Source: Paramacrobiotus metropolitanus
Taxonomy: Eukaryota > Tardigrada > Eutardigrada > Parachela > Macrobiotidae
Direction of reading: 5' to 3'
DNA length: 64,000 nt
NCBI RefSeq assembly: GCF_019649055.1
Contig: NW_026570274.1
Span: 434,001-498,000, forward strand
The notes under the pieces were generated by a model. The model was not told the origin of the DNA. It did no database searches and saw only the letters and a program-made list of their open reading frames with translations. Position numbers and translations under genes: made by a program. Position 1 is the first letter of the stretch. Each line of letters opens with the position of its first letter. Below, piece by piece: positions 21,725 through 44,166 of the stretch.

Positions 21725-23282
21725 TCAGCCTAACGATTTCAAAGCTGTAGGTTTGGCAGCACTGGATGCCATTGTGGAGGGCTGCACTGACGCGCCAAAT
21801 CTGCCATGACAAAGCATTCTGGCAACGCCACTCCGGTACTCCTTGCTCATAGCGAATAATAAAATCTGCAAAAATAATGTCATACCAGTGGCCCATAAAA
21901 TATGTAGCATTATGATGATCAATTTACAGAAGAAATCTCATCCGCACAGTTATATGTATATCCAGACTATCAGCATTACAGTCTCTTTAAAATTAGCTAG
22001 ATCTATATATACCGGTATGAAAAGAAACCCAACAGGATACAACACCCGTGACAGGAGCTGCAACGGAACGGATGCAAAGTAGACTTTCGGTGCGATACCC
22101 ATGAAAACCGGGACAGGCAGAAAGCACAGCAGGTTGACAAAGAATATGAGAAACGATATCTTCGTGATTGCGGTGGCTGCCCGCTCTTTCGAGGACCCCA
22201 CGGCCTGTCTCTCCTGACTGGTGCGCTTCCGGATCTGCAGGCTCAGGGATAAACTGAAGTAAAGCACAATAGTTATGGCAATTGGAATGAATACTCCAAG
22301 AGATTGTTGAACGTCTCCGATTTTTCCGGATGCCGGGTAGCTGCATCCACCTAAACCGTTTTTTATATATCCACCAGCTAGGCCGAAGCAGCCAGGTAAG
22401 GCCAACAGACACCCGGCTACAATGGCTGTGACCATCTGATAACTGTTGGATTTGATGTTTGTCAATATATGGTAGCGGTGTGGAAATGACAGGGCGACGA
22501 AGCGGTTGATGGCGATCATGGCGTCCAGCCAATTCAGGATCTGTACAATTGGTTTCCTTAGTATCATGGAATGCTTACAGTAAAATTAGTCGATTTTAGT
22601 TTTCATTAAGAGCTTTCTGAAATTGTGAAACCTTGAGATATTAGCCGTATTCGTGCTTACCTAATTGCACGATAAAGGACATTACAGAATTTAAACTGCA
22701 GAATTCTGTATTAAAAAATTCTGTATCACAGAATTTTTTAATTTAAAATTACATCGCATTTTTTCTCCGAGTGTTTAACAATGTTTCCACGTCCAGGTAG
22801 ATGCAGAACAGGTGGGTGAACCAATAAATAAAAGTCTAAGACATACTTGTCACAAACTCAAAGTCCAGTTCTTAGAAATTTGGCTAGTCAACGTTGAATA
22901 AAACTGAAGGAAATTACTGACGTACGTGCAGTAAACTTTGGAAGATCAGTCGGTCAGCAATACAGGCAACAGGCGGAACATGCCACTTATTAATTTGACT
23001 TCCGTATATGAAAATGGCGGACATTGGAAACGACACCGAGCACAACAGAGCCATCACCGAGAGTGATGCCGAAATGAGGTGTCCTGCTCCAATGCGCAAT
23101 GATTTCTTTAATAAAATAGTTGCTGCCAAAATAAAATTTCCTAAGCCTCCGGCAAAACACAAAATCAGCAGACATATTGTCCAAACGACAACGCTGGTTG
23201 GGTCAATCCAAATAAGGCTCGGTGGATTTGGCTTGGTCGAATTCCCGGCCAGAGAGCTTACGTTTGTCAAAAAAGTATTCAT
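21725..23282 (-). CDS. Three-exon class A GPCR, cluster copy B (intact)
   Basis: Predicted 341-residue receptor: exon 1 22926-23282, exon 2 22013-22540, exon 3 21725-21865, both introns phase 0. The N-terminus has NVS and NST glycosylation sites. TM1 includes ILCFAGGLGNFILAATILLK (conserved GN). TM2 is in LISASLSVMALLCSVSFPMS. The TM3 Cys is in VACIADR, and the DRY position reads INRFVAL. The ECL2 Cys is in GGCSYPAS. TM5 is LGVFIPIAITIVLYF. TM6 is SFLIFFVNLLCFLPVPVF (CFLP for CWxP). TM7 runs across the last intron as YPVGFLFIPILLFAMSKEYR, without a full NPxxY. The NRF-type TM3 end and AMSxEYR tail recall the moody/Tre1/melatonin-like class A group, but this is only suggestive. It is the only undamaged member of a four-copy cluster and so the likely functional gene. 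Confidence 0.85.
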
Positions 23283-25154
23283 AATGACAGCAATTTTAAT
23301 GGTCGAGCCGAATTAACTGCACCTTCATTCCTGACCGTTTCTGGAACCGTAATTTATAGGTAGAAAGGTGACGATGCGTATTTATCTACGTAACAGATAC
23401 ACAGTAGTACACTGCAATACGTGCAGTCTAATGCTCTTTTAATGCTTTCAAATACTGTATGCTTTGGAAAACGGCTGTCACATGCACACGCATACAATTT
23501 TATAGGCGCAATCGGTAAAATATCAGCTCTCGTTGTACATATCCGATTAAAAATCCACTTTAAATGTCACTTCGTCCACTTTTTCCGGATATAATGAATC
23601 TGCGCGTTGTAGTGGTACAAAATTGAGAACGTCATGTGCTGGTCTTTCAATATTTGTTACTGGTGTAATGCATGTATATACGATCACGCGGATATGATCA
23701 TAAGACAGTATGCTACATCAGGGGAAATTTCAGCCCAACATTTCGAACAATCAGCGTAGGAGTTCGGCTATTCCAAAATTTCATTGTTTCGGCTTGAATT
23801 GGATCTCGAAGTGAGATGTTGTATATAATGTATGAGTACATGATGATTTCTTCAGCAAGAGCCAGTACATATACAAAATGCTTGCGCTGAGTACTGATTA
23901 AAAATGGTATGAGTTTGACACGAGTACATTATTCTACTGTCATCTCGGAACACGCTTCTCAGGATATCATTTACTTCTTTGTTTGATTATTATATTATGT
24001 TTAGACTGGTGGATGACGAGATTTCATCACGGTGACAGGATGAAACATGATAAACGGGGAAAGCCGGTCGACTTTTTCTTCTGTGTCAGCGTCTAAGTTT
24101 GGAGATTACGCGAGGAAATTCACTTTAATAAATGTCTTTGGCACCGTGACTACCGTCCCGTAACATGTTCATGGGGACAATGTATTCCTTTTACTTCGAA
24201 TGCTCTCAGTAAGCGGTGCCGGTCACATTTAATGCAGAGTAAAGCTAAATGTCATATACTTTGTAAAAGATGACCATTTTCATACAATATCCCGGTTAAA
24301 ATTTAATACTTTGATGAAACCTTTACTAGTAAGCGCAGGTGTTGCTTCAATTTGTACTGCAATCCTTTAATAGGATAATAAGTTTTCCTACCGTAATCAA
24401 GCTGATTAAGGAATTAGTTTCATCTCTTCTGTCTAACATTAGAAAATGTATGAGAAAAAGGATGTTTGTCGCGCATTCAGTCGAAATTTTCTTAGTTGGA
24501 ATGCAGGCACGTATGATCTTTAATAAGAACATCTCAGTATTAGAAAAAGACAAAAGATGCTATGCTTATTATGAGAAACATGTGATTACTGAACCCTCTA
24601 TTAAACAGTCTCGTGTAGTGTTTGTACTAGTACTACGACATCTCGCTGGTACTTATAAGTTTTCTCTTTCATTATTGAAGCCACCACAATAGAATTCCCA
24701 TTAGCAGAACTCTTACGCTAATTACTAAAATTACTGATTACTGATTACTAAAATTGTACACTGAAATTTTCTGGATGCATGTATGTGTAAGGTTCAAAAC
24801 GTCAGTGCTCATAAATTGGAGTAAGACACTGGAATTCTTGTATCCTACAAACACATGCATTCAGAAACCTCACATTTAATTTCAACCGTAGATTATACGA
24901 GTGTCAGGTCTAACAAGAGATGCAGCGATGATGTTGTGATTAGTCTCATTAATTATACCACTGCCATGCACAAACTCATTAAAATCTCGACGATGTCGGC
25001 AAAGTTTAACACCCTGATGACACGACAGAGCGTGATACTGTGTGGTCTTCATTTGATATGTGTCGTGTAGAAACTACTCTAGGAAGGGCGCTAATGTCTC
25101 CGGCTGCACCCAGTATATGCGTGTGCATTTTAGTACCCGTTTAAAATGGCATAT
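23283..25154. other. Intergenic, no gene recognised
   Basis: About 1.9 kb upstream of copy B. One 117-codon frame on + (24339-24692) has no recognisable domain and non-coding-like composition. Nothing else is seen. Confidence 0.4.
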
Positions 25155-25300
25155 TACTGTAGCCGCCCGCACAAGTTGCCCCACAGAGTGAGGTATACGG
25201 ATATTTGGCCTCACATTGCTCGCTGTTCAGCGCAGTGTGTGCAGGGAGAAGGCAGCGGCCGGATCTGCCAATGGAGCAACTTGTGCGGGCGGCTACAGTA
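25155..25300. mobile_element. Short MITE with perfect 25-bp terminal inverted repeats
   Basis: The left end tactgtagccgcccgcacaa (25155 onward) is perfectly repeated in inverse orientation up to 25300, 25 bp in all. The 146-bp element shares its outer TACTGTAGC and an inner CCACAGAGTG with the 566-bp element at 8372, so they belong to one family. Both are bounded by TA. Confidence 0.82.
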
Positions 25301-25664
25301 CCTTGATTTTCTTGTTTGCCGCTTTGATAGAGCATGGGATTGCATATGCTATTACAGAGTGCAGTTAGAATGCACAATTACCAGTTCATCGACAACTTAT
25401 GCTCTCCGGGATTTCAAAAAGGTTAGGATTGTGAGCTCAGTAATTCTGTCTCAGCAAATAACCCGCTAGGAAGGAACCCATTAGGAAGGAACGCTTTTTT
25501 GACCAATCGAAGCACCGTGGCAAGAAATTATACCAAAGTAAGTCCATCGAGCTTACCAGTTAGTTTGGATTGAACGAACTACCGTTGCCGCTCACATAAT
25601 ATGGCACTTGTTTTGTGGTTTGTTGGAGATTTAGACATCTTAGCTTTACAGTTACTATATTTTT

Positions 25665-25790
25665 ATCTAGCAGTGGAGCAGGATACCTGATTTCGGCATC
25701 CTTCTCGGCGACGGCTCTGTTGTGTGAGGTATCGTTTATTATATTTTATTTTATCCATTATTTTCATATACGGAAGCCAAACACATAGTT
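25665..25790 (+). pseudogene. Fragment of the three-exon GPCR family (exon 1 part)
   Basis: Plus-strand translation gives GAGYLISASFSATALLCEVSF, then a frame change and IFIYGSQ, matching GAGHLISASLSVMALLCSVSF...IFIYGSQ of copy B. No other exon is found nearby. It is a dead fragment between copies B and C. Confidence 0.75.
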
Positions 25791-26694
25791 ACTGGTGTCT
25801 AATGATTTCCTGCCTTTTGTAGCGATTATAGTATATGCGTCATAATCTAAGTAGGTAAAACGATAGAATTACTGATGGCAATGTAATAATTTGGCACTAG
25901 TGCGTTAATCAATTTTATGTTCCATACAATAGTGGTTCGATTTTCTAAAAGCTGTGCATAAAAATAATCTTGCAGTAATGTAACGACAATTTTGATCTTG
26001 GTGCGGTAAATTACATGTACAATAGCTTCCGCTTGCCGGTTACTGTTTGTGCGTTAATATGATTAAACGACGGAGATTTGTTTATTTTAAACCTTTTACG
26101 AGTATATTCAATTTTCAGACAAGATTTAGGAAAGCTTATTTTCTTATGCGGCAGTATTTTCTTATCCGCATCAGCTTTCGAAGATTTCTGTTTCTCCAAA
26201 AAAAGGAAGAAAAACATGGGCCAGCAGTTATAATACAGTAACCTTACTACTAGCCACTAGATACATTCCGTATATAGAACTACCGGTCATGATTACATAC
26301 TTACAGATACATGACATTATTTAAAAAATTTGATCAAACTTCTGTTTTCGGAGACAAATGGGACAAAGCTTACATAAATAAGCAGCACCATACGAAGGTT
26401 GGCAGATTCCTTTGCAACATCCACAGGAGTAAGCGAAATTCTCACACCGGCAATGCAGATACTGAACCGGATAGCCGTAAATGTAATACCCCAAGTTGCG
26501 GAACCGTCTATTATGACAGTGACACGAACTAGCAGTGGTTGTCAGTTTTCACCCGGGGTAATTCGGGTTCTCGGAATAGAAGAGGATGTATACTTTTCAT
26601 GTTACCAGGTTGGACCGCATCCCACCAAGCATATCAGCTCTTTTAAGAACGTGACTACAGAGTACTTGGATCTGACCTTAACACAACGGTGATA

Positions 26695-28224
26695 ATGAAC
26701 TATTCGTCCTTAATCTACAGCAGTAATTCGACCCTCAGTTTGACCGGCGCGAAGTCTGGCGTCATATCATTATTGTTCATTGCACCCACGACCGTTTTTG
26801 CTTGGACTATCGGTTTGCTTATACTGTGCTTTATCGGAGCTGCAGGAAACGTTCTCTTGGTGGTTACCGTTCTGCTCCAGAAAAGTCTCCAAGCGGGAGC
26901 GAGATTTCTCATATCGGCATCATTGTCCGTAATGGGTCTAATGTGCTTGATACCGTTTCCGTTATCAGCCATTTATGTGTACGGAAGCCAGATAAAAAAG
27001 TGGGATCTATCGCCCGCCGCATGCGTTGCTGAACGTTATATTTTCCAAAGCCTTTTACACGTAAGTGCACCACCCACAGTAACGCCCAACAAGTCAATGA
27101 TATACTTCATGATAATTATTTACTTACAGATATATTTGTTTTGCCTTTGTCTTCTGCTAAAGGGAAAAGTCTTTTAACCGTTTGCAAGTACTCTTGCCTG
27201 AACTGCTATTCTAGTTTGTGAGATAATTAAATCCAATAAGTAAGACGCTGTCACATGGCTAACGTCACTGATCGACTTTTAAAATTAGGTACTCAATTTT
27301 CTGGATGCCATGATTGCCATCAACCGCTTCGTTGCCTTGATGCTACCACATTACTAAGCCGTATTTACCACAAAAAAGTCCAGTTGTTACCAAATTACAT
27401 TTGCCATAATTTTCGGTTTGTTTCTCGCTTTGCCCGGATGTTTTGGATTAGCAGGAGGATATATAAAAAATTCGGTGGGCGGGTGCACTTATCCGTCAAG
27501 TGGACCTGTAGGAAATGCTCAACAAGCGCTTGGTGTATTCATTCCTATCGCGGTGACCGTTGTTTCGTACTTTGTTTTGGCTTCTGCCCTGCAACTCAAG
27601 AAACGAGTTCCGCGGAGCGCTTACACTTCCGGCGTTACGACGGATAGAGCAGCCACTGCCATCACGAAGATTGCCTTTTTCATCTTCTTTATCAGTCTGC
27701 TGGCCTTCCTGCCATTTCCGATAATTCTCAGAGTAGCACCCAAGACATTCGGCTCGTCGGTTCCACTGCAATTATTCTCGCGGTTTTTATATCCGCTTGC
27801 ATTTCTTGCAGTACCAGTGAGTAATGATCAAGCAGTGATCAAGTAATGAGCAGGCGATTGGGATGTTTAGGATTTCATTTTGCTACGATCGAAATGTTGT
27901 TTGGCATTTGTACAGACTGTATACAGTATCTCAAAATCGCTGCGATCAGTATTTTAGGCAGAAAAAAGGTCAAAGGATTGCTGGTTTTAGGTATTCCTGT
28001 TGATCATGAGTGCCGAATATCGTAGCGCACTTCGTAAATTGCTTCGACGGAATTCCCGGCCGTCTGGAATTATAATGCCACTCTCAGCTCCTGTTGCATC
28101 CGGCAAGCCAAAACCATCAAGCTCCAATCCTAGACAACCTGCAAATGAGTTTGGAGCAATGGACTGCAATTTTGAAATTGCGGGGAGTTCCTCTCGCAAG
28201 CAGCATAAGAACTGCAATCTGTAA
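26695..28224 (+). pseudogene. Three-exon class A GPCR, cluster copy C (single nonsense codon)
   Basis: Exons 26695-27060, 27289-27816, 27991-28224; introns phase 0, same positions as copy B. The whole frame is open (about 375 codons) except for one TAA at 27355-27357 just after INRFVALMLPHY, in the second intracellular loop, where copy D has a Tyr codon (TAC). TM1 has GAAGNVLLVVTVLL. TM2-3 reads LISASLSVMGLMCLIPFPLS...WDLSPAACVAERY. TM6 reads KIAFFIFFISLLAFLPFPII. The tail starts MSAEYRSALRKLLRRNSR and is longer than in the other copies. With only one stop it could be a very young pseudogene, a polymorphic null allele or a base-call error. It is about 85-90% identical to copy D, in opposite orientation. 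Confidence 0.83.
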
Positions 28225-30527
28225 AACAAACCTTGCGGCATGGTACTGGTACTACTTGCTTTCAAGATAAGTGCCGTTGCTGCAACGAAGCCAAAAATTC
28301 AAGGCGAAATTCGACGCAATTCCCCTTTCGCCTTCTGTCGGGAATGCAAACCAGTCCAGCTCCTCTCTGTTCCATTATAGGTAATCCACAACACCCTTCG
28401 TGGCGTTCCGGACGACTTCCCACTTCCTGTCTAATTCCAGCTCATCCTCCGTTCGCGTTTCTAACGACCCGGCGAACCCAGTGGAGTTGTTGAGGCGAAA
28501 TGTAAAGCCCGAAAGATCACTGGTTCCATCATCTCCAACGCATAAAAAGTAACTTGTTCACCGCATGTTCCTGTTCTAGCACTAGTGTGATCTTCTAGTA
28601 TACAGTTTAATCGTTTAACGTCCGCACACAATCTGGATTTAGACCCAATCCGGGGCAGCAGATCCGTCATAAAGAAAAAAACAGAACAAGAGTACAGCAG
28701 CAGCAGGCTAAAAATTTCACAAATATTCACATTTACCACAGCGACACGTGTTCAGGATGGTAAAATTTTTCAACGACACAACGGACTTCCGGTCAACGCG
28801 ATTCAAAGTTTCTGTAAATCTACCAAATTCTCATACGCTTTTGCTGGAATCTGCAGGCAATTCCAAATTCTCGCCATCCGATAAGCAAACGATCTGTGCG
28901 ATGGAGGCAGTCTGTGACCGCAGAAGTTTGATCCAGTGGGAATAATCGGGCAAGGGTGTTTAACCGTTCGTTGTTGATGACGCGTTGCACCTGCAACACC
29001 GGAGCGCACGGCAGTATCTTTAGAAAATAACTGGTTACAATTGGAATTAAGATTAAATTGTATATGAACTAATAAGTCAGCTGAAGGCTGCGCTTTAGAT
29101 TCGGCAGTACGATTGGCTCTCGCTCTACTGGGTAATTCTCTTAACTTTATCAATATAGCTGCCACTGTTGATTCTGATTTTTGAGATGCAACGACTGATA
29201 CAACGACTGATGATTCTTCTTTGAGCGTTTTCAATATTATCGATTTGTCTTTTCTGAATAGATATGTTACGGATGCACAGTAGTCAGAGAACAAGACTGG
29301 TATGCAGCACACAGCTTGCCGACAATCGCGAGAGCAAAACAATAGTGCTTAAATATCTCAACCGCTTCCACATTCTGCCAGATACAGATCCGGACTGCAG
29401 TTTCCACCTGTGAAATAAATGCCAAATACTGGGTCGAATCTACTACAGGCCCCACATTTGCACAATATCTTATCAATGGAAAAGCACTGGCAACCCTTCC
29501 AGTACGTGTATAGTATCATGTTTATCGAAGGGAGGTTGGAGATCACAAAGCGTACCCTGATCACGGGATAACAGAAGGATCGGGCTTTTAGTTTAATAAG
29601 TGCTTTCCTGTCCACTGGCTTGGACATGGTTTGTTTTCACAAGAGAAATTTTATCCGCCCGAGAAGATATCCATGACCATTGAAATGCTACTCTGTACCA
29701 TTATTCTTATTCACGGAAGAAGACTACGAACTGAATTTATGTATAATATTTCTATAAATGCTGTGCGCCGTGAGGTCTTGGTCAAGATTGTAACTTGTGA
29801 CGGTCCCAGTACGTTTTCATATACTACTAAAAGTAGATGTCTAATAAAAGAGATGGTTCTACAATAGAATTATCGCCAATCGTCAGGTTAGCATGGTGAA
29901 GAAAACGCATATGTATAATGTGTTTGTATATATAGGCATCCTTTATGCAATAAATGTCTGCCAGTGTCTACTGTAGATACGTACAAGAAACAAAAGAATA
30001 ACAGTTCACTCAATTACCAACACCTTCCAAACTTGGCAAGTATAGTAACTACTACTTTACTGACAGATATGGTAGTATTTAAAATCTGTTTGTGGATTTC
30101 GCTTAAACTAATGAGACGTTCAAGGGCGGCCATCGTTTCGTACACCGTGCCGGAAGAATAGTACCTACATACCAGGTATTGATATTACAAATCAAAGTGA
30201 AAATAGCAGGCCTGCCTGCCGCGGGCTCTAGGGGTACAGCACAAGAAGAAGCCAGAAATACTGTAAAAATGGATCCGTACTTTTGTTAATTAAATAATGT
30301 TTAATCTTTGTGGACTTAAAGGGTATGCATATTGCGTACTAGCTGGGAACGGATGAACTACGACAACAGCAACAATTACAACAATTTGAATTACAATACA
30401 ATACTTCTGTATGTACTGTGCTGCCTCTTCATTAGCGGACACAGATAGAATTTGAAGACACGAAACTGCTACATGGATCCGAATTTATTTCCTAAATTTA
30501 GTATAGCTAAATTGATTTGCAAGTGCT
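28225..30527. other. Unassigned region
   Basis: 2.3 kb between the inverted GPCR copies C and D. Several open frames exist on minus (for example 28803-29342, 29358-29627), with a CSRDC that vaguely recalls an MYND finger, but no continuous model with splice sites could be built. No repeat or RNA gene was recognised. Confidence 0.4.
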
Positions 30528-31946
30528 CTATGACCGGAGGTTAATTTGTGGGGCTTTACAGGATGCAACTGTGGCTGAGCATGGTAACACTATTCCAGTC
30601 CGGGAATTCCGTCGAAATAATCTGCGAAGCGCGCTACGATATTCGGCACTCATCATTAAGAGAAAAACCTAAAACCAGTAATTTTCTGCGTAAAAACACT
30701 GATCGCAACGAGCCTGAAGTATACAGAGTTGAGTTTGAGGTTAATAGTCTCTACAGATGCCAAACAACATTCCGATAGCTGCAAAAGGACATCCTTAACA
30801 TTTCGCTTGTTCGATCATTACTTACTGGTACTGCAAGAAATGCAAGCGGGTATAAAAACCGCGAAAATAATTGCAGTGGAATCGATGAGGCGAAGACTTT
30901 GGGTCCCGCTCTTAAAATTATCGGAAATGGCAGGAAGGCCAGCAGACTAATAAAGAAGATGAAAAAGGCAATCTTCGTGATGGCGGTGGCTCATGGCTGC
31001 TCTGTCCGTCGAAATGCCGGAAAAGTAAGGGCTCTGCTGAGCTCGTTTTTTGAACTGCAGCGCAGAAGCCAAAACAAAGTACGAAACAACGGTCACCGCG
31101 ATAGAAATGAATGCACCGAGTGCTTGTTGGGCATTTCCCACAGGTCCACTTGTCGGATCCACCACCCGCCCACCGAATTTTTTATATATCCTCCTGCTAA
31201 TCCAAAACATCCGGGCAAAGCGAGAAAAAAACCGAAAATGATGGCAAATGAAATTTGGTAATAACTGGACTTTTTTGTGGTAAATGAGGCGTAGTAGTGT
31301 GGTAGCATCAGGGCAACGAAACGGTTGATGGCAATCATGGCATCCAGAAAATTGAGTACCTAATTTTAAAAGTCAATCAGTGACGTTGGCCATGTGACAG
31401 CGTCTTACTTCTTGGATTTGACTATCTCACGTACTAGCAACTCAGGCAAGAGTATTTGCAAACGGTTAAAAGACTTTTGCCTTTAGCAGAAGATAAGAGG
31501 CAAAACAAATATAATACAAGTATTATGGGTAGGAAGTATATCACTGACTTGTAGGGCGTTATTGTGAGTGGTGGACTTACAAATAAAAGGCTTTGGAAAA
31601 TATAACGTTCGGCAACGCATGCGGCGGGCGACAGATCCCACTTTTTTATCTGGCTTCCGTACACATAAATGGCTGATAACGGAAACGGTATCAAGCACAT
31701 TAGACCCATTACGGACAATGATGCCAAAATGAGAAATCCCGCTCCCGCTTGGAGACTCTTCTGCAGCAGAATGGTTATCACCAGGAGGAGGTGTCCAGCA
31801 GCCCCAACAAAACACAGCACGAGCAAACCGACAGCCCAAACTAACACTATCGTTGGATCAATGAACAATAAAGTCAATATGGTGCCGGGCTTAGCGCCGG
31901 TCAAAATAAGGGTCAAATTAGTGGTGTTGTGCGACGAAGAGTTCAT
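30528..31946 (-). pseudogene. Three-exon class A GPCR, cluster copy D (two indels)
   Basis: Exon 1 31581-31946, exon 2 30826-31359, exon 3 30528-30668, with intact splice sites. Exon 1 is a full match to copy C. Exon 2 has a one-base deletion near 31160 (after NSVGG) and a 7-bp insertion near 30990-30996 (within the stretch before the TM6 start). The net change is +6, so the frame is restored downstream, but the ~170 bp between them are read out of frame and meet a stop. Exon 3 keeps an open frame (VFLLMMSAEYRSALRRLFRR). Copies C and D are an inverted pair with similar introns, implying recent duplication. Confidence 0.84.
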
Positions 31947-32015
31947 TATGACCTTAGTGGTAGATGCAATTAATCGCGTTCTTTGAGAGCGCTGAAATGA
32001 TTGGGGGGATGAAAC

Positions 32016-32060
32016 CTGCACCTAAAATAAAAAGCTGCACCTAAAATAAAAAGCTGCACC
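32016..32060. repeat. 19-bp tandem repeat, 2.4 copies
   Basis: Unit ctgcacctaaaataaaaag repeated head to tail upstream of GPCR copy D. Its function, if any, is unknown. Confidence 0.8.
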
Positions 32061-32674: not shown

Positions 32675-33600
32675 TTACAAAAACAACAGCTCGTTAAACA
32701 TTTCGGCTTTCTCCACCGTGCCCAAAACAGAAACCGCATTACCACGCTGTACCTCTATGGACAAACGTTGTCGAAGAAATTCGTGCGAGCGGGCTTCTCC
32801 TGAATGAGAACGTAATCTTTTCCCAAGTTCTTTTATGATGGCAATGGCCGCTGGTCCCCACGGGCCCATAGTTTCAAAAGCGATAGGTGTGAATATATAG
32901 CGGCCGTTTAAATAAGAATAGAACCTAGACTTCTTCTCTTCAGCCTGCAACGCGGCCGATCCCGCAATTGCCGAAGTAGATTTGATGTGGGAAGCGGCAA
33001 CAGTATCCACGCAGGTGACATCCCATGCCAAGCACATTCCTCGCTGCCAGGCGAACGTTGTGCAGCCATCGGGGCGTCGTTCGTTGGTGTGGGAAGTGCC
33101 TCGGGGTTCAAGTTTAGCTGGGATTCCGGCTGATACAAAAGCCCGACATACGATACTGTTAAGGCCACCATGTCTTGGGTGTCTGCCGGCGGAGAAGGTA
33201 CAGGAAAGACCATGATGAGCGTATCCGTCGACCGGCTTTAAACATTTCGTGCAGTTGTGAGGTTCACAAATCCTGGCGCCGAGTCTAAGGCCTACTGAGA
33301 TTTTCACAGTGTCGTCATCGAGGAGGTTACCTATATGGGCGGAAGGCAACGCGTTGAGCCAAATGCCGGCTTCTGGTCTCGACTGGGCAAGCAGACGCGC
33401 CTTATTAATTTCATCATCCCGGTATACTTCTAGCAGGGCAGCCAGAGATACATTACACAATGGCAAATCCCATGCCTTCTGGGAATTGCGGAATTCTGGA
33501 ACGGGCAGTTCTGTTAAACGGGCTTTGCCTTCCACATTTCTAGAGCAACGGTAACGTCTGAAGTCTCTCGACTGGGAAGCAACAAAGACACCAGGTCGCC
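32675..33600 (-). mobile_element. 5'-truncated R2-type LINE fragment (endonuclease end)
   Basis: The minus-strand frame 32675-33535 (286 codons, uninterrupted) matches the C-terminal third of the LINE at 9872-13183. Shared features are LGARICEPHNC, a zinc knuckle CTKC...HHGLSC, then RHGGLNS, RRPDGCTTFAWQRG, WDVTCVDTVAASH, FETMGPWGP and RLSIEVQRGNAVSVLGT. It keeps the Asp of VDT that the other copy has lost. No reverse transcriptase is found upstream, so it is a typical 5'-truncated LINE insertion. It is divergent enough from the first copy to be another subfamily. Confidence 0.88.
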
Positions 33601-34202
33601 GACGGAGTGAATCGACGTGAATTCACAAATAAATTCTGCAGATACATATATATAAATTAATTAAAGTAGGCCGCTAATCAACAGCATCCTGGAAACCGCT
33701 TGCTCTAATCTTACTAATTTTTTCACTGATTCACTTAGTAAAGGGTACAAGCCCAGCACGGATGAATAATGTCTTAGGATTTCGAGCATGTAAAAGGGTT
33801 AAGAGCATATGTATTAAATAATGGCACGATGTTTATTACATTAAGGAGGCACGAACAAAATAAACAGGCGTGAGCAGAACCTGTTATTTTTGCTAATGCG
33901 CAGTTCGCTAATTTCAATGACAATTCGATATAATAACACATAGTAACAATCTGGGGATTTACAAACAGCCCATGTTAAGCTAATGGCCACCATGGTAACA
34001 AGCTTTTGAGTGACCACTGGATTGTGGGTAGTGGGCATTCCAGAAAATTAATGATGCAGGAACACTCTCGACACTGAGAGGATTCTGTAGCACTTTAGAG
34101 CGTGCAGATTGGATGTGTGGAACGGGAGAACATTCGAGACAACGGCAAAGTGTCGGGGACCCTTGTCACGTAGTTAGTATTCATATAACCAGTTTACGGG
34201 AT

Positions 34203-34951
34203 CTACATCCGTACACAAACTTTTGCGGCGCAAGTTTGTTACGCAATGCACACTTCGCAAGGGTTGATCGCATTGGTCCCAGCCGCTAAGAAAACTACAA
34301 AAACTAAGAAAGAGAAAATCTAAGAAAACTTGAGAAACCCTAAGAAAGCCTAAGAAACCTAAGAAAACAAAGAAACCCAAGAAATCTAAGAAACATAAGA
34401 AACCTGAGAAACCTAAGAATACCTAAGAAACCTGAGAATACCTAAGAAAACCTAAGAAAACTAAGAAACCTAAGAAATCTAAGAAACCTGAGAAACCTAA
34501 GACTACCTAAGAAACCTGAGCATACCTAAGAAAACCTAAGAAACCTAGGAAACCTAAGAATCCTAAGAAACCTAAGAAATATCGTATATGAAAGAATACG
34601 AGGTATACCGATCACGCTGGTGGGATTGACTGCGATTAATTTTTGCACATGTTTCTTAAATTTTCAATACTTTGTAACGTGCCGATGCCGAAGGCCGCGG
34701 TCTGTCTCGGTTTTTCCGAACGGTCCGCGAATAAACAATGCATTTACCATTTATGTCTATGGGGGCCCATGGCAACAATTTATTTTTTGGGGCTACTCCT
34801 TCCCTTTTGGGGCGTATCGATGGCGCAATAGCGTAAGAACATTCGCGCCGTTGAGGCGAATTTAACGCACTTGGCCGCATCGGAATCCGTTCAGCCGTTC
34901 GCCCAAACATTGGCTACATTATCAATCGTGTATACGTGGTTACGGATGTAG
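34203..34951. mobile_element. Array unit 1
   Basis: 749 bp, bounded by CTACATCCGTA / TACGGATGTAG. It contains the CCTAAGAAAC satellite (34270-34580) and a ~330-bp unique-looking body that is repeated nearly unchanged in units 4 and 6. Confidence 0.8.
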
Positions 34952-34970
34952 ATAACCAGTTTACGGAGCA

Positions 34971-35481
34971 CTACATCCGTACCCAGTTTTGGGGCGCATT
35001 TGTTTCGAAAATATTGTGAAAAGAAAACGTAAGAAAATATAACAAACATAACGTCGTTGCGGCGATTCTGCCATTTTTGACCGCGTCAAAATCTGCCTAC
35101 CCGTTCAGCCAAACATTGCTTTTTTAGGTTTGAACGTCACGGTTGTTACGGTACAGTTCTGTGGTATTTTTCCTAATATTTTTCGAGCCGAGGCCGAGAG
35201 GGCCGATCTGCCGTGCAAATAATGCTGATGCAACCCGTGTGCCTATACTTTATGTTAACCGGTTTGGAGCGAGGTCGGAAGGCGAGACTTGCAGGCACAT
35301 GGCAACAATTTGTTTTTTGAGGGCCGTGCTCCCCCCTTGAGGCGCATCGGGTCGGCAATAGCGCAACATCACCCGCTTCGTTGCGACGATTCTGGCGCAC
35401 TTTACCGCGTCAAAATCGGCCTACCCGTTCGTCCAAACATAATTTTCTTAGCAAAGGCCGTCATGGCTGTTACGAATGTAG
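34971..35481. mobile_element. Array unit 2
   Basis: 511 bp with the 11-bp inverted ends (right end TACGAATGTAG). No satellite. It carries the CATGGCAACAATTTG core near 35298 and a GAGGCGCATCGGGTCGGCAA block shared with units 3 and 7. Confidence 0.75.
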
Positions 35482-35500
35482 TTAACCAGTGTACGGAGGA

Positions 35501-35905
35501 CTACATCCGTACCCAGTTGTGTGATATTACGGCGTCGGACGCATACATTATTAAAATTTGTCGAGGTATTCCGGATAAAAACTTTGGTTTTTTACGCATG
35601 GAGGCCGGTGGCCGAGGTGCGTCCTGTACTTCACACCCGGAAATAATAAGCAGTAAACGTTGTTTACAGTACTTTGCTTTAACCAGATGGGATCGATGTC
35701 TGAAGCCGAGGCTGACAGGCCCATGGCAACAATTTGTTTTTTGAGGCACCTGCTTTCCCCTCGAGGCGCATCGGTTCGGCAATAGCGCAACATCACCGGA
35801 GTCGTTGCGACGATTCTGGCGCACTTTACCGCGTCGAAATCGGCCTACCCGTTTGTCCAGACATAATTTTCTTAGCAAAGGCCGTCATGGCTGTTACGGA
35901 TGTAG
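35501..35905. mobile_element. Array unit 3
   Basis: 405 bp, the shortest unit. Its right half is nearly identical to that of unit 2 and unit 7 (tttcttagcaaaggccgtca before the terminus). Confidence 0.75.
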
Positions 35906-36446
35906 TTAACAAGATGAGCACGGATGAATATTGGCTTACGACTAGGTACTGTAAATAAGTGAGTTAGGATTTGTTGTTACTAGTAGTCGCAGAATTACGT
36001 CGTAGTATTACTGTTTAGTGAACTGGGCTGCAAGATTGACCGAACTGTTGATACAGCTCAGTGCATTGGGCCGCAAGGTGCGACAGTGTCACAGTGATCA
36101 AGTGAAATACTGCAAGAAACGCAGAGGCGAAGCGAAAGCTGTTTCATGTTTCAGCTGATTGAGTAGCACATACAGTGTACTGTGACCGTGGTAACAGACT
36201 AGCCCATGTCACATGATGTCAGCCCTATGGCATCCATGGTAACAAGCTTTCAAGTGACCACTGGGCTTGAGGTTCTGCATATAGCAAACAACGATTAGTT
36301 TTAGATCACCCGCCGGGCCGAGCGGTTCCCAGAACATTTTAAAGCGAGAAAATTGGATAAGTGGGAGCTGAGATCATAGCGAACAAAGAAGGGAAGCAGA
36401 AAACCTGCAAGAGATGTATAGTATTCATATAACCAGTTTACGGGAT

Positions 36447-37085
36447 CTACATCCGTACACAAACTTTTGCGGCGCAAGTTTGTTACGCAATGCACACTTC
36501 GCAAGGGTTGATCGCATTGGTCCCAGCCGCTAAGAAAACTACGAAAACTAAGAAAAAGAAAATCTAAGAAAACTTGAGAAACCCTAAGAAAGCCTAAGAA
36601 ACCTAAGAAAACAAAGAAACCCAAGAAATCTAAGAAACTTAAGAAACCTGAGAAACCTAAGAATACCTAAGAAACCTGAGAATACCTAAGAAAACCTAAG
36701 AAACCTAAGATATCTAAGAAAAATCGTATACCGATCACGTTGGTGGGATTGACTGCGATTAATTTTTGCATATGTTTCTTAAATTTTCAATACTTTGTAA
36801 CGTGCCGATGCCGAAGGCCGCGGTCTGTCTCGGTTTTTCCGAACGGTCCGCAAACAGACAATATATTTACCATGTATGTCTATGGGGGCCCATGGCAACA
36901 ATTTGTTTTTCGGGGCTACTCCTTCCCTTTTGGGGCGTATCGATGGCGCAATAGCGTAAGAACATTCGCGCCGTTGAGATGAATTTAACGCACTTGGCCG
37001 CGTCAAAATCGGCCCAGCCGTTCGCCCGATCATCGCGAACATGTGCTAAGCATGTATAAGAGGTTACGGATGTAGATAACAAGAT
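36447..37085. mobile_element. Array unit 4
   Basis: 639 bp, closely matching unit 1, including the first 100 bp after the left terminus (acaaacttttgcggcgcaag) and the satellite at 36530-36725. Confidence 0.8.
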
Positions 37086-37677
37086 GAGCACGGATGAATA
37101 TTGGCTAACGACTATTTAAAATTACGTCGCGTCTGCATGTGTTGGATTGTGGTGCAAAGTCAGAATGGCAAAGCCAGACAGCTACTTATTCAGGATGGTT
37201 GCCTGCGGTGAGAGTCGTGGAGTATTGACCTTTTGCCCCTAAAGTTTTTTGGTTCATGGCTCAGCTGCTAAGTTTCTGCTTATTCTACTGAATTCTACTG
37301 AATCTGAGAAGCTACTGTAGTGGCTTATCAGTGGGCGAGGTGATTTGTAAAGTGTTTACTCAGCCAGGGGAGCACAAGAAACGCAGAGGCGAAGCCAAAA
37401 CTTTTTCTTGTTCAGATTTATCATGCCCGTGGCAACAGAGCTGCCCATCTTAGCCCTATGGCATCCATGGTAACAAGCTTTTCAGTGACCGCTGGGCCTA
37501 CCGCGATCGCGATGGCGAAAGGTCAAGGGTCTAAGAACACTCCCCGCACTGGGAGGATTCTTGTGCAATTTGAAGCAGAAAAATCGAGTGAATAGAAGCA
37601 GAGATCATGCGTTACATTCAGAAGAGGCCGAAGGTCTGCAAGAGATGTTTAGTATTCATATAACCAGTTTACGGGAT

Positions 37678-39134
37678 CTACATCCGTACGTATTGTCGCG
37701 GCGTACTTTAGTTTCGAAGGTTTCGAAATTTTTTAGTTAATGCAATTAGGACTGTCAAATATCAGCAGCCCGCTTGTATCTACGGCACGACTGCTGCGCA
37801 CGTATCGGTTACTCATTTTTCCGCTATGACTAAGAGAAAAAAAGTGAAACATGTTCCCACCACTGGTAACGGATACACTCGTAGAAACACACACCAAATC
37901 TGACAGCACCGTGAATTCTGCAATAAATCTGCATTCAGTGCCATTCACTACTATGGACAACGCAGCACAACTAGCGCAAACTTGTTAAGAAAAATAATCT
38001 CACATAGCTTAATGACATGTAATTAAATTTTCTTCATGTGTAATAAATTTTCTAATTAGGTGCTAAAAAAACCAGGTGCAAAATTGCTAATTAGGGGCAG
38101 ATTCGCTAATTAATTAGCTGCTAAATGTATGCCAATTAGGCGTGAATGACTCTAGTTAGTTCATATTTTTGCTAATCGCTCAGTTACTAATTATTAGGTT
38201 AATTAATTAAACCTTATTATCCTAAAAACTTAATGACGAACTACAGTAAGTACAGCGTAATTACATACAGTTTAATGCAGCCTGGGTCACTACGAACGTT
38301 TATTAGCAGCGCAGGATAATTTTAAAGAGTTGACAAGCGGTCATGAATGTGAGCGCGAATTATAAAACCGAGCTCAACAGCTCGGTTTTCTAATTCAGCA
38401 ACTGATTCTCCAACTGACCAATGCGCGCGGCGTTATCAGTGAATCTGTCTGACTCACAAATCAGTGCGCGAGTTGTTGCGCACTCGAGAGTTTTGACCTA
38501 GATACAATTCGCATCAGAGTCCCAATACGTAGCATATTTGACAGCAACTAATATACGAATCTTCTGCATTCACAAAGTTTTTTAAGCGTAAGAATTGTAA
38601 GACGCCTAAGAAACCTAAGCAACCTAAAAAAAAAACATAAGAAAACCTAAGAAACCTAAGAAACATAAGAAACTTAAGAAAACATAAAAAAACCTAAGAA
38701 AGCTTAAGAGACCTAAGAAACCTAAGAAAAATAAGAAACCTAAGAAACCTACGAAATCTACGAAAGCAAGAAAGTTAAGAAAGGCAAAGAATACAGATTA
38801 CGCTAATCGCCAGTTTGATCATCATTATTTATTTGTCGTACTTTTCCGAATTTTTTTAATTTTTTTCGCCGAAGCGATGTCGAAGGCCGCGGGCCGCCTC
38901 TGTCGCTGCGACTGTGCAGATTATTAGCCCACGTCCGTCTATGGGGGCCCATGGCAACAATTTGTTTTTTGGGGCCTTTGTTTCCCCGTTGGGGCGCATC
39001 GGTTTTGCATTAGCGTAACATTACCGGGGTCGTTGCGACGATTCTGGCGCACTTTACTTCGTCAAATTCGGCCCTGCCGTTCGGCCAATAATTCGGAATA
39101 AAGCATATTCGTGTATAAGATGTTACGGATGTAG
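37678..39134. mobile_element. Array unit 5 (longest)
   Basis: 1457 bp. The first kilobase is AT-rich and unlike the other units. It includes an 11-bp stem hairpin (aaaaccgagct / agctcggtttt, 38364-38389). The satellite at 38590-38790 and the CCCATGGCAACAATTTG core near 38949 match the rest of the family. Confidence 0.7.
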
Positions 39135-39151
39135 ATAACAGTTTACGGGAT

Positions 39152-39840
39152 CTACATCCGTACACAAACTTTTGCGGCGCAAGTTGATTGCATTGGTTTG
39201 ACCAATGCAATCAACTTGATTGCATTGGTCCCAGCCACTAAGAAAACTACGAAAACTAAGGAAGAGAAAATCTAAGAAAACGTGAGAAACCCTAAGAAAG
39301 CCTAAAAAACCTAAGAAACCTAAGAAACCTAAGAAAACCTAAGAAACTAAGAAACCTAAGAAACCTAAGAAACCTAAGAAAACCTAAGAATAACCTGAGA
39401 ATACCTAAGAAACCTGAGAATACCTAAGAAAACCTAAGAAACCTAAGAAGCCTAAGATATCTAAGAAATATCGTATATGAAAGAATACGAGGTATACCGA
39501 TCACGCTGGTGGGATTGACTGCGATTAATTTTTGCACATGCTTCTTAAATTTTCAATACTTTGTAACGTGCCGATGCCGAAGGCCGCGGTCTGTCTCGGT
39601 TTTTCCGAACGGTCCGCGAACAGACAATGCATTTACCATGTATGTCTATGGGGGCCCATGGCAACAATTTGTTTTTTGGGGCCACTCCTTCCCTTTTGGG
39701 GCGTATCGATGGCGCAATAGCGTAAGAACATTCGCGCCGTTGAGACGAATTTAACGCACTTGGCCGCGTCGAAATCGGTTCAGCCGTTCGCCCAAACATT
39801 GGCTACATTATCAATCGTGTATACGTGGTTACGGATGTAG
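39152..39840. mobile_element. Array unit 6
   Basis: 689 bp, near copy of unit 1 with a local rearrangement: an 18-bp perfect inverted repeat with a 3-base loop at 39180-39218 replaces about 35 bp present in units 1 and 4. Satellite at 39235-39460. Confidence 0.8.
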
Positions 39841-39859
39841 ATAACCAGTCTACGGAGGA

Positions 39860-40788
39860 CTACATCCGTAATAGTAATCTAGTAAATACTAGGGTGGCGT
39901 CTGGTTTTGCCTTTTTTCGTATTTTTAGCGCTTCGATTCGGTGGTCGAAGCGCGTTGCGTTGTTTAAATCTTAATACGAGTATTTTGCATTAACTACTAC
40001 AAATACTTAGTTTGCAGCGAGGTCCGAAGTCGAGGCGTGTAGGCCCACATACACCACTGCAGGCCCACCACCATATTTTTATTTCTGTAATTTTGAAGTA
40101 CTGTATTGGAAAACAGATGAATGCTGAATTTAACGGTAGTGGACAAATAGGGGGTTATTTTATGTCCTAAATTATACATTCGTTAAGAAGTTCAATAATA
40201 AAGGGACAATAACGGTAGTGACAAATAAGGAGTCATTTTATGTCTTAAATCCGCAACCAGCTTTGTGGCGTTACGGCGCATAATTTTATGACGTTTGTGG
40301 AAAGAATTTGCTTTTTTTACGCATCGAGGCCGGTGAGCGAGGTGCGCCCTGTACAGCATGGACAAAAAAACGCATAATCCCACCCACAGCATTCCGAACG
40401 CATGCGGCGCAGTTGCGCTGTACAACTCAGCTAAAATATCCGGTTGTCGTATAAGTGCACTTGCCCCATGCGTACGGATATCTGGGTGTGGAGTTATGCG
40501 TCTTTTTATAGTCCTCACACCGGAAATAATAAGCAGTTAATATTGTTAACAATACTTTGCTTTACCGAAATGGAAGCGATGTCTGAAGCCGAGGCTGTCA
40601 GGCCCATGGCAACAATTTGTTTTTTGAGGCACCTGCTTCCCCCTTGAGGCGCATCGGGTCGGTAATAGCGCAACATCACCCACTTCGTTTCGACGATTCT
40701 GGCGCACTTTACCGTGTCAAAATCGGCCTACCCGTTCGTCCAAACATAATTTTCTTAGCAAAGGCCGTCACGGCTGTTACGGATGTAG
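39860..40788. mobile_element. Array unit 7
   Basis: 929 bp. The left 450 bp are unique, with a local direct repeat (ggacaat/acggtagt.gacaaatag, 40132 and 40205). The right part equals units 2 and 3. The array ends here: the sequence after the terminus (ttaactatgtatcatag) lacks the spacer. Confidence 0.7.
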
Positions 40789-40790
40789 TT

Positions 40791-43161
40791 AACTATGTAT
40801 CATAGCTTTCATTATGATAACAGTAAAGAAGAGACATCAAATATTCAGAATGTCTCTATAACATATGATAGATAAGTGCTCTAATAAGGATGGGTTTTGA
40901 CACTTCGTAAATTTTGTCGAAATTTTCCAAACAAGAAGTTTGTGTGTAACTGTGCTTATAAATCTGACCCTGTTAATTTACGGTTTCCGGTTATTTTCAA
41001 TGAATATGTTTTCCATGGATAATTGCGGATCAGCAGCACGCTAATAGAATCAGCTGGTTAGATTTTGGTGTCGTGGCAGTATCTCCGACTCCACTAAATG
41101 TCGACACTCCCTGGCTGCGGCCACGTAATGCTTCAAATGTACAGTTAGAAGTTATTAGTTATTGAAAACCATTAAACAGTTCTCGGTGCTTCTTACCGAG
41201 CATGACAACATTAAGTGAATTACAAAGATCCAGTAGGGAACGCGCTCATCCTACCGACGCATACGTCGCAATCATACTAGCGCTGTCACCTTCGGTCTAT
41301 CTTTGCTAAAGTGTTATGGTACCTTTATTAAGTATCATCGTGTGAGTACAAACTAAGTACCAAAAGAAAACAACATTTATAACAGAAATACTTTGCTGAA
41401 GGCTTCGTCGAAGCATTTACCTTCAAGCAGACTCTCGAGCAGAAATGGCTACAGATTTAGATTTAAAATTATCGCACTACGGTAAATGCGCTGTGAATTA
41501 ATGAGCATGGTACAAAACTAAAATGCCAGTGCCTAATCTATCGTATTCTGTTGCTACCGAGTAGTTATCTATCTGTACAGTACATTAAAGTTATCAGTTC
41601 ACAACTGACAGTAAACTTAGGAAATCATTTTCGTCTACCACAAAATACCAACATTGTATTCACTTTTCTCGTTAATATTCAGTGTTAAGCTTTATACCCG
41701 TTTTCTACCAATTAATTTACCCAAGGGTAACAACGCTGCTGCCCAGAAGTGTCGGGGAAACTTTCGCCGCCGTCTCGCCAATCCTAGTCATAAAGTGTGA
41801 AGCCATTACAGTGATTTGAGAATATTATAATGCGAAGAATTTGCTCGAAACCCAAAATTGCACAAAACTGAAAGCACTTAGGAGTTCTGCAGGTTTATCT
41901 AATTTTTGAGGAATTTCTGCGAGCCTGCAATTAATTAACCACAACCGATACTTTTCTGTTTTATAACCATCGGGTTGGATTTGCTGGGGTGACCTTTGCG
42001 AGCGGCGTATCCGATAAAAACAGATCTCTCGGATTGGTTCTTGCGTAAATATGTGTTTTTCCCAAATAGCTAACGTCAAAATTTAATGTTGAATGCTCTG
42101 TGCACGCGCGGCAAATTTAGTTGAGTAGTTGTGCATGTTAGCTAAAAAAGTGTTTCGAGCCTTTACTTGACCATGGCCAGGTATGCGCTTGAAGCAAAAG
42201 GGTACGGTGTCTCCAGTTTGCGTATACTCTTTGGGCAGTTCCGGGCGATCGCTCATATTCACAGTCTGTCGAAATTCTATGATTGGAAAGTGATGCCAAA
42301 AGTTGACCTTTAGCCCACGCCATGGCCATGGACGCATGCCAGCCTACGCAGCGTATGTTTCTTCGCCTTGCGGGCAAAACAGCCTAAACTGGTGAATTTT
42401 GCATCAAGGCCTAGGTGCGTCAGGACAGTCAGTCGCCACTCTTATTCTTTCGAAGTCGTGTAAACCTGTGGGGTGATCTATAATGAAAGAAACTGCACTG
42501 AAGGTGACCTATAGCTATCGATCGTCAGGACAGGCATAACCATGCGAAAAGGTGAAATCAAATAACCCCCTGGTAAGATGCAATTAGCAATAGACATTTC
42601 AATAATGCAGCATGCTGTCCGCCTTTTCTGCAGAGCGGAATTATCGGCGTTGCAGATATACCGGACCCCATATCGGATTTCGGCATTTACGCGGCTATTA
42701 CGGTATTTCCTATCAAAATTTTTTGAATTGCGACCGGTTGGTGGGTTTCATTTACGCACGTCGAACGATGCCTGGATTTAACCAGTTTTCGCGTTATGCA
42801 TGCGGCATAGAATTATTGATAATAATTGTTTCACCGTCGTCATGACGCATAAGTAAGATCAACCGGTCGGCTCTGCATGGTGCAAGAAAACAAATCCAAA
42901 ATCATGTTCACCATCTCGAGACTAATAATTACTTATAATCACTAACGTCATTGGGAACATTTCGACATTTTTCGTGGATTTTGCCTAAAGGTGAATCCGC
43001 TCTTTACTGTATCCGACGAAAGGTGATCTGGCATGACTGCATATTCTATAATCTTCTACTTCTGCTTTGAACGAAACATCTAGCTAGCTACATGAAAAGA
43101 AACACGCAGACTGGTGAACGTGTATTTTGCTGAAACGTACTGCCTATATGTGACCTTGGAA
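40791..43161. other. Intergenic, no gene recognised
   Basis: 2.4 kb between the repeat array and the next GPCR. Only short frames without recognisable motifs. No LRR gene like those upstream of the other GPCRs of this type was found. Confidence 0.45.
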
Positions 43162-44166
43162 ATGGCTTACAACAACACCACAATTACAGCCTTTAATATA
43201 ACCCGATCAATTAGCCGTTTTTTCCTCTACGGCAACTGGACAACTTTGGATTCCATAACCTGTGTATTATGCTTTATGGTGTATTTCACCAACGGATTCC
43301 TCCTCCATCTCTATCGGACACGTCCAGCATTACGCAGCCCATTTGGCGTGTACGTCATCCTCATTGCCGTTGTCAACATCGTGCTCAACATATCCGTCAA
43401 TCCGCTCAGCCTGCTACTCAAGGACGCCTTTCCCGATTTTGCGACATCCACATTCTGCACGGTTCACGAGTATATCGGTGTGGTAGTCGGTGCCGCATTA
43501 CCGGTAACCCACATGCTGATCAGCCTCAATCGCGCCTGGGCCATCGCCTTCCCAGTACACTACAAACGTCATCATTCCCACACAACGGCCCTTGCTATTT
43601 GCACCTTAGCGCTCTTAATCATAAACATCTGTGTGATACCCGGCATCGTGATCGACGGAGTATACAGCCGCAACGAAAATTTAAACCAACGCTGCAGTTT
43701 GAGCCGGGACCCGGCAGTGACCACCTGGATCAGTGTTATATCCGCGGTGTTTTTCATCGTACCGGAATGCGTCATATTGGTGTCGTATCCGTTCTTCGTT
43801 TTTCGACGGCTGCACCATCGACGACAGATCCGCACGACAGCCAGTAGTCAGGGAAAAGGGGAAGATACAACGGCGCCGGTCAGTGGGATGCAGATGCAGG
43901 CAGAACGGGTCAAGACGACAACATCGTCGCGTTCCTTCTTTATCCTAACCTTGTTGACGCTGAGTGTCCTGCTGTTCTGGACGCCTAATAATATGTTTTA
44001 TTTATTAATTCGCTACCTTCCCAATGTGGCGTTGGCGCTCCGTATTGGAAATTATTTGAAATTAGTGCAGGCCATCTTCGATCCAATCCTGTTTCTAGTT
44101 GCGCTACAGTATTTACGGTTTGTCTGCATCGAGATTTTCCATGATCTTCGAGAAATTTTTGTGTAG
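43162..44166 (+). CDS. Class A GPCR, single exon, paralogue of the 14.6 kb receptor
   Basis: A 334-residue receptor, taking the first in-frame ATG (MAYNNTT). N-glycosylation sites NNT, NIT and NWT precede TM1 (CVLCFMVYFTNGFLLHLY). TM2 is in VVNIVLNISVNPLSLLL. TM3 follows a Cys (STFCTV) and ends SLNRAWAIAFPVHYKRHH, so the DRY box is NRA. The ECL2 Cys is in QRCSLSRDP. TM5 is in IVPECVILVSYPFFVFRRL. TM6 is LTLLTLSVLLFWTPNN, keeping W and P. TM7 ends QAIFDPILFLVAL (DPxxF for NPxxY). Aligns end to end with the minus-strand gene at 14557-15612; both lack introns. It is on the opposite strand and about 28 kb away, so it is a dispersed copy. An orphan receptor by this evidence. Confidence 0.88.
   Translation: MAYNNTTITAFNITRSISRFFLYGNWTTLDSITCVLCFMVYFTNGFLLHLYRTRPALRSPFGVYVILIAVVNIVLNISVNPLSLLLKDAFPDFATSTFCTVHEYIGVVVGAALPVTHMLISLNRAWAIAFPVHYKRHHSHTTALAICTLALLIINICVIPGIVIDGVYSRNENLNQRCSLSRDPAVTTWISVISAVFFIVPECVILVSYPFFVFRRLHHRRQIRTTASSQGKGEDTTAPVSGMQMQAERVKTTTSSRSFFILTLLTLSVLLFWTPNNMFYLLIRYLPNVALALRIGNYLKLVQAIFDPILFLVALQYLRFVCIEIFHDLREIFV

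Follow-up and report, generated by a model that had tools for sequence, protein, structure and literature searches.

Helitron2 elements carry an inverted repeat near the 5' tip, whose partner lies subterminally at the 3' side, with hairpins close by (PMC3627910). As described there, they encode a transposase that joins a Rep nuclease to a helicase (RepHel), have short non-autonomous copies and insert next to a T without duplication; the system reported here resembles them in the layout of the repeats, the RepHel, the short copies and the insertion next to T, and probably in the lack of a duplication. With the HINE/DINE-1 elements and the Helentrons it has in common non-coding derivatives with subterminal inverted repeats (11-15 bp there) and internal short tandem repeats, a coding partner with the same ends and probably the lack of a target duplication (PMC4067079). 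Tandem Helitron insertions have been cited for bat, Drosophila, rice and maize (PMC5148889). We analysed a stretch of 64,000 nt from Paramacrobiotus metropolitanus (contig NW_026570274.1, positions 434,001 to 498,000; hereafter the window), which holds an array of short repeated units that share an 11-bp inverted repeat. We propose that the units of this array are very probably non-autonomous copies, short and without coding sequence, of two Helitron rolling-circle families that are related to each other, here called A and B, are nearest to Helitron2 and HINE and would pile up by insertion at resident ends. The cause of tandem Helitron arrays is a matter of debate. One genome here provides both families together with their coding partners, an empty site and recent units that are nearly identical, a setting that allows self-targeting, read-through and recombination to be told apart.

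The 11-mer CTACATCCGTA or its complement, with one mismatch at most, occurs at 14 sites in the window, all inside 34203-40788, where 0.56 sites were expected and none of 100 shuffles reached 14. These sites form the seven facing pairs that the initial annotation of the window had reported; 13 of the 14 are exact, and the single mismatch is at 35471-35481. The segment lengths of 405-1457 bp and the four spacers of 17-19 bp were also as described, while the core CCATGGCAACAA, said to be common to all seven segments, is exact in six of the seven A units and one letter off in unit 2. The array is nevertheless not a set of seven self-nested elements. It extends over 33748-40789 and consists of ten abutting units that stand head to tail, seven of family A and three of family B, the latter uncounted until now, and TAA follows directly after all ten. 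The longer flank noted before units 1, 4 and 5 is present, but its meaning had been missed, as it is the right part of a family B element. The window shows the elements reversed relative to their true orientation, and in window coordinates the array reads:

33748..34185, minus strand: family B unit, cluster B.8, first in the array; its true 5' end is the right side, its ends are CAAGCCCAGCACGG... and ...AGTATTCATA, then TAA; the left flank is not another unit
34186..34188, no strand: TAA linker, the first of ten (one per unit), equal to the 5' TTA of each element in true orientation
34189..34952, minus strand: family A unit 1, cluster A.1; ends CCAGTTTACGGGAT-CTACATCCGTA and TACGGATGTAG-A, with internal 9-bp CTAAGAAAC-type repeats; unit 1 of the initial annotation
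34956..35482, minus strand: family A unit 2, cluster A.6; right repeat with one mismatch; unit 2 of the initial annotation
35486..35906, minus strand: family A unit 3, cluster A.4; 99.3-99.5% identity to single units at two other loci
35910..36429, minus strand: family B unit, cluster B.11; newly counted
36433..37076, minus strand: family A unit 4, cluster A.1
37080..37660, minus strand: family B unit, cluster B.2; newly counted; 98.6% identity to a unit in locus L022
37664..39135, minus strand: family A unit 5, 1472 bp, the longest in the array
39139..39841, minus strand: family A unit 6, cluster A.1; left end CAG for CCAG (one C short)
39845..40789, minus strand: family A unit 7 (cluster A.16), which closes the array; followed by TAAC and then by flank outside the array

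In window orientation, family A has the form CCAGTTTACGG(GAT or AGGA)CTACATCCGTA ... TACGGATGTAG[A/T], and family B the form CAAG..AGCACGGATGAATATT ... AGTATTCATA. Turned to the true orientation, A begins 5' TTA[A/T]CTACATCCGTA and finishes at its 3' side with TACGGATGTAG followed by ATCCCGTAAACTGG or TCCTCCGTAAACTGG, a tip of 14-15 nt that ends in CCGTAAACTGG. What had been taken for a separate spacer sequence consists of the ends of two adjoining units, namely a 3' tip and the 5' TTA of the element that follows. The 11-bp repeat of A lies 4 nt from the 5' tip and is subterminal, 14-15 nt from the tip, at the 3' side, and is an asymmetric terminal inverted repeat of the Helitron2 type. The coding strand and this asymmetry together indicate that the window displays the elements backwards; the direction of the gene alone would not settle the orientation, because the gene of some Helitron2 elements runs in the opposite direction (PMC3627910). 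According to the same account, the asymmetric inverted repeats of Helitron2 measure 8-15 bp, a range that includes the 11 bp of A, whereas the inverted repeat of B, at only 7 bp (ATGAATA/TATTCAT), falls below it. The two systems also differ in the distance of the 5' repeat from the end (4 nt here, 0-2 there), in that of the 3' repeat (14-15 nt here, about 20-30 there), in the target (T[AT][AG]^T[AT] here, TTTT^T/C there) and in the 5' hairpin, which is inconstant here (PMC3627910). At the 3' side, two A types fold into a hairpin. The units end in TTA.. and ..CTGG/CTTG; they do not all share the 5'-TC and CTRR-3' ends of Helitron1, and they lack its A^T insertion rule. The two tips of a unit do not form an inverted repeat.

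Searches of the genome (169.8 Mb in 533 contigs) found the 11-mer 525 times (267 and 258 on the two strands), compared with 41 times (23 and 18) for the same word written backwards. Close facing pairs of the form TACGGATGTAG-N(8-38)-CTACATCCGTA, a self-complementary pattern for which every place is counted once per strand, occur at 78 places and at none for the control. Because of these two excesses the array repeat is a genome-wide repeat and no local accident. A genome-wide scatter of unpaired 11-mers had been named as grounds for giving up the elements; as far as this was checked, the 11-mers are far more frequent than the control and paired in clusters. The exact junction word that follows a B end is present 215 times and the one that follows an A end 165 times, compared with 1 and 0 for the words written backwards, and 25 of these junctions lie within 19 kb at C30:1197562-1216363. 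In 54 fetched loci and the window array, counting neighbours that are 0-8 bp apart, the linker is exactly TAA or [AT]TAA in 169 of the 177 abutting pairs, irrespective of the types that meet: B-A 52/54, A-A 45/49, A-B 45/46 and B-B 27/28. From 61 loci and the window array we cut out 186 complete units, of which 99 have A ends and 84 have B ends, such that 183 are end-matched and three are mixed:

L056 6363-6916, L057 191-1877 (minus strand) and L017 2629-2938: hybrids, each of which combines an A end with a B end (two A-B, one B-A)

Inverted B-type units adjoin array units in L009 (about 2088-2546) and in L057 (minus strand, from about 1880), and in L057 a second RepHel (P0003) comes after the inverted unit.

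No named family had been recognised from the window, and a coding partner with the same ends had been recommended as something to look for. Such partners are found for both families, and they identify the elements as Helitrons by their transposase. For family A, L055 is one unit of 9,714 bp with exact A ends and a B unit abutting on each side; its open reading frame (ORF) P0001 (1476 aa, L055:3391-7818, minus strand) matches Helitron_like_N (4e-22) and PIF1 (8e-29) in Pfam. For family B, L060 is one unit of 7,726 bp with exact B ends, flanked by an A and a B unit, in which Helitron_like_N (9e-21) and PIF1 (3e-34) are matched in two ORFs. L056 provides a second A-type copy (80% identity over 927 aa), and the Rep parts of A and B share 51% identity across 599 aa. 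P0001 also matches Helraiser, the bat Helitron transposase (PDB 7lcc), at 1.6e-7, its helicase part at 1e-30, and its HTH and YLAKY (Y-x3-Y) motifs align with HAH and YLFKY of Helraiser. By these matches, the coding relatives of A and B are predicted to encode a Rep (HUH nuclease) joined to a PIF1 helicase, i.e. a Helitron transposase, homologous to Helraiser in both parts and with the same catalytic motifs (PMC4778049; PDB 7lcc), and these large elements, whose ends match those of the short units, would be the source of their transposase. Helentrons differ in their endonuclease domain: Pfam (E 0.001) reports no AP endonuclease domain in P0001, the one ORF of L055 scanned for it, and the last 200 residues instead match the Ulp1 (C48) protease family weakly (21.2 bits against a cut-off of 20.7, E 3e-4). 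The whole-genome Pfam search gave 79 matches to Helitron_like_N, some of them near known arrays; L055 came from three of these places, and L060 from a further set. These matches fall into several score classes, and the search suggests that the genome contains more Helitron families than A and B.

The point of insertion was approached from the outer flanks. Six outer-flank pairs were joined and searched for as empty sites, an alignment that the initial annotation had advised and that gave one clean empty paralogue; the other five joined pairs gave no clean empty site. The clean case is the solitary B unit of L023, with an empty copy at C34 (96% identity); two other partial relatives, at C4 (88%) and C175 (81%), have been rearranged or do not contain the join. 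The sequence in true orientation is GGTTG^TACATATA when empty and GGTTG[TTATATGAATAC...CTTG]TACATATA when filled, so that TTGT stands once in the former and at both ends of the element in the latter. There is no duplication at L023 beyond these four ambiguous bases, whose letters are constant in B ends elsewhere. The preferred target in the outer flanks is T[AT][AG]^T[AT], as tabulated from rows picked by hand (24 out of 69 for right ends, 21 out of 36 for left ends); the rows left out were ends beside another, mutated or inverted unit, left-end reads of the opposite strand, chance hits with one mismatch and degenerate ends. Before the site, T is found at -3 in 23 of 24 rows, followed by A/T in 22 of 24 and G/A in 22 of 24; after it, T at +1 is found in 20 of 21 and A/T at +2 in 21 of 21. 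G or A thus stands ahead of the TTA of the element in 22 of 24 rows, which does not agree with the insertion within TT of Helentrons and HINEs, unless the first T belongs to the host. The left outer flanks are often without TAA, and A/T-A stands before many first units of arrays.

We propose the following course of events, in which nicking, circles and end recognition are borrowed from work on Helraiser (PMC4778049) and from the general model (PMC6213432), and our own sequence data supply the element ends, their coding partners and the statistical results. The Rep-helicase from the large relatives would act on the short units with the same ends, nick the 5' end, peel off one strand and stop at the 3' tip, after which the strand would be joined into a circle and inserted ahead of the T that follows the cut in T[AT][AG]^T[AT], with no genuine duplication of the target. 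Every insertion would restore the acceptor junction ..TG|TTA.., and the resident ends of both families would serve as acceptors far beyond motif expectation; because the acceptor is restored and resident ends are favoured, the units would accumulate head to tail, always joined at the same exact point. The earlier suggestion of an element that repeatedly inserts at a single sequence, or within its own termini, comes close to the evidence found. The target motif occurs once per 33 bp on both strands (in the window outside the array), or at about five million sites in the genome, and if it were used at random, about 7 of every 100,000 insertions would fall on one of the 380 junctions known. The 165 exact A-end junctions, set against about 262 A units (half of the 525 11-mers, which are in part chance words), amount to roughly 63%. 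Since this is far over the rate expected by chance from the motif, the ends are favoured, or the arrays grow locally in some other way. The preference for the families' own ends is thus supported statistically, and nicking by Rep at these ends is what we infer.

Whether the units arrived one by one or in blocks can be judged from their neighbours. A and B mix without preference (33 A-A, 29 B-A, 27 B-B and 24 A-B among 113 pairs), and in 16 pairs of units taken from different loci the identity is 98.5% or higher, with L017/L019 at the top (99.9% over 730 bp), where the neighbours differ on both sides. Among the near-identical pairs with a comparable neighbour, the neighbour differs in nine of 11 and is the same in two, five further pairs not being comparable, and the units appear to move singly. 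Read-through, in which Rep would run past a 3' end and take the neighbour along so that multi-unit blocks move jointly, is known for Helitrons from experiment (PMC4778049), and would explain why A.1 is followed by A.3 more often than in shuffles (11 vs 7.7, p 0.019) and why the divergences of A.1-A.3 partners correlate (r 0.84, 11 pairs). Repeated neighbour pairs other than A.1-A.3, however, match the shuffles (20 vs 19.6), repeated triplets number 2 vs 0.75 (p 0.175), the correlation is lost when one subgroup is taken out (r 0.29, p 0.23, nine pairs) and near-identical units mostly have different neighbours, and we regard block movement as an unlikely origin of the arrays. Local duplications by unequal crossing-over are common in tandem DNA, and crossing-over between units that reshuffles the arrays after a few insertions would account for the three hybrid units. 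It would nevertheless be expected to leave many hybrids and unequal lengths, and mixed ends are found in just 3 of 186 units (a count that bears on crossovers between the families), while many arrays lie on separate contigs with different flanks; this origin is improbable. Our account of the arrays, which we hold with moderate confidence, is that units were inserted singly at ends already present, although some may have moved together. Neither side of adjacent pairs is the more diverged (35 to 35 of 70), which gives no direction of growth.

Two further readings replace the Helitron altogether. The one favoured first was a miniature inverted-repeat transposable element (MITE) of the cut-and-paste kind, e.g. 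Harbinger-like, that duplicates TAA and inserts into the TAA of its own kind, as reuse of the duplication would leave a single TAA between units. It was dropped as the tips are not inverted repeats, contrary to Harbinger-type MITEs with their inverted tips and 3-bp TWA duplication, as many first units are preceded by A/T-A and as the large relatives are RepHel elements (no DDE transposase was sought near these ends), and we now give it very little credence. A tyrosine recombinase or integron-like cassettes acting at the junction palindrome would suit the mixed head-to-tail units, the one conserved junction and the facing 11-bp repeats, which resemble recombinase arms; this reading was rejected since B has another, shorter repeat and yet joins at the same point, and the elements contain RepHel and not a tyrosine recombinase (for which no genome-wide search was made), so that it is hardly credible. 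Several observations nonetheless weigh against insertion of Helitron2-like units at resident ends. All neighbour pairs taken together are repeated more often than in shuffles (30 vs 20.9, p 0.004), and the A.1-A.3 excess and correlation described above contribute to the same doubt. By folding, the 5' hairpin CTACAT..ATGTAG is present in one A end type and absent from the other and from L055, the 3' tip of L055 folds differently from TACGG..CCGTA, and the B ends, with their short inverted repeat, have almost no hairpin. The transposase of L060 is split and has Asn at the first His of HUH, reading N-T-H. Only one of the six sites was clean and its four shared bases (ACAA) would permit a 4-bp duplication there, and one outer right end, L005 1302, a row outside the target table, has no TAA and a flank that is not array.

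With high confidence as to their kind, judged from the transposase genes and the ends, we place A and B as a probable new pair of Helitron2-like families and not as a new class, Helitrons by their transposase and nearest to Helitron2 by their ends. What is unusual is that units stand so often exactly on the end of another unit (about 63% of the A units) and that A and B mix freely. A study of oyster HINEs describes the inner copies of tandem Helitrons as often 3'-truncated (PMC7492417), whereas the inner copies here keep both ends. FoHeli of Fusarium oxysporum is similar in being a non-canonical Helitron with asymmetric inverted repeats, but the account of it gives one tandem case, 2 bp from a partial copy (PMC5148889), compared with at least 380 exact junctions here. 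We consider the system a novelty within a known kind because its inner copies are complete, its families are mixed and its junctions number in the hundreds, in contrast to known tandem Helitrons. Literature listings on Helitrons (tardigrade, Ulp1, tandem) contained no description of it, which is not proof of its absence from print. An apparently unnamed repeat has thereby become a Helitron2-like system with a likely source of transposase and hundreds of natural junctions resolved to the base. We further entertain, as an idea that could readily turn out either way and that we hold somewhat short of belief, that resident ends of either family are a dedicated acceptor for circles, whereby complete units would be strung into mixed chains that keep growing, much like integrons. 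If so, Rep or a partner (e.g. the Ulp1-like tail) would recognise element ends as targets, and such self-targeting rolling-circle transposition would do less damage to the host. For annotation, arrays of this type call for care, as different interiors with common ends can lead to their being split into unrelated 'MITE' families.

Within the A units, tandem repeats of the 9-bp CTAAGAAAC type occupy window positions 34286-34583, 36530-36720, 38600-38790 and 39240-39470, and near-perfect 18-bp hairpins lie at 39180-39218 and 38357-38396. Words of the form CTTAGGTT, similar to these 9-bp repeats, are present in the repeat that hosts the B unit of L023. The motif CCATGG[CT]AACAA, which we take to be similar to half an X-box (RFX site) and which might conceivably serve as a promoter or for Rep binding, occurs in the window at 33990, 34767, 35721, 36234, 36890, 37465, 38949, 39656 and 40604. 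In both families its distance to the junction is about 175-215 bp, and it is likewise present in L060, while L055 has CCATAGCAACAA instead. Outside the array, an ORF at 10536-11969 (plus strand) matches a reverse transcriptase (RVT_1, Pfam). Just left of the array, the ORF at 32675-33622 (minus strand) has no Pfam match and shares motifs by eye with the ORF at 12347-12817; it may be another copy of the retroelement to which the RVT_1 ORF belongs. A Rhodopsin-family seven-transmembrane receptor gene (Pfam) and several similar repeated ORFs seen by eye, at 14557-15639 (minus strand), at 43096-44166 (plus strand) and within 20393-32021, suggest an animal genome and a cluster of receptor genes surrounding the array.

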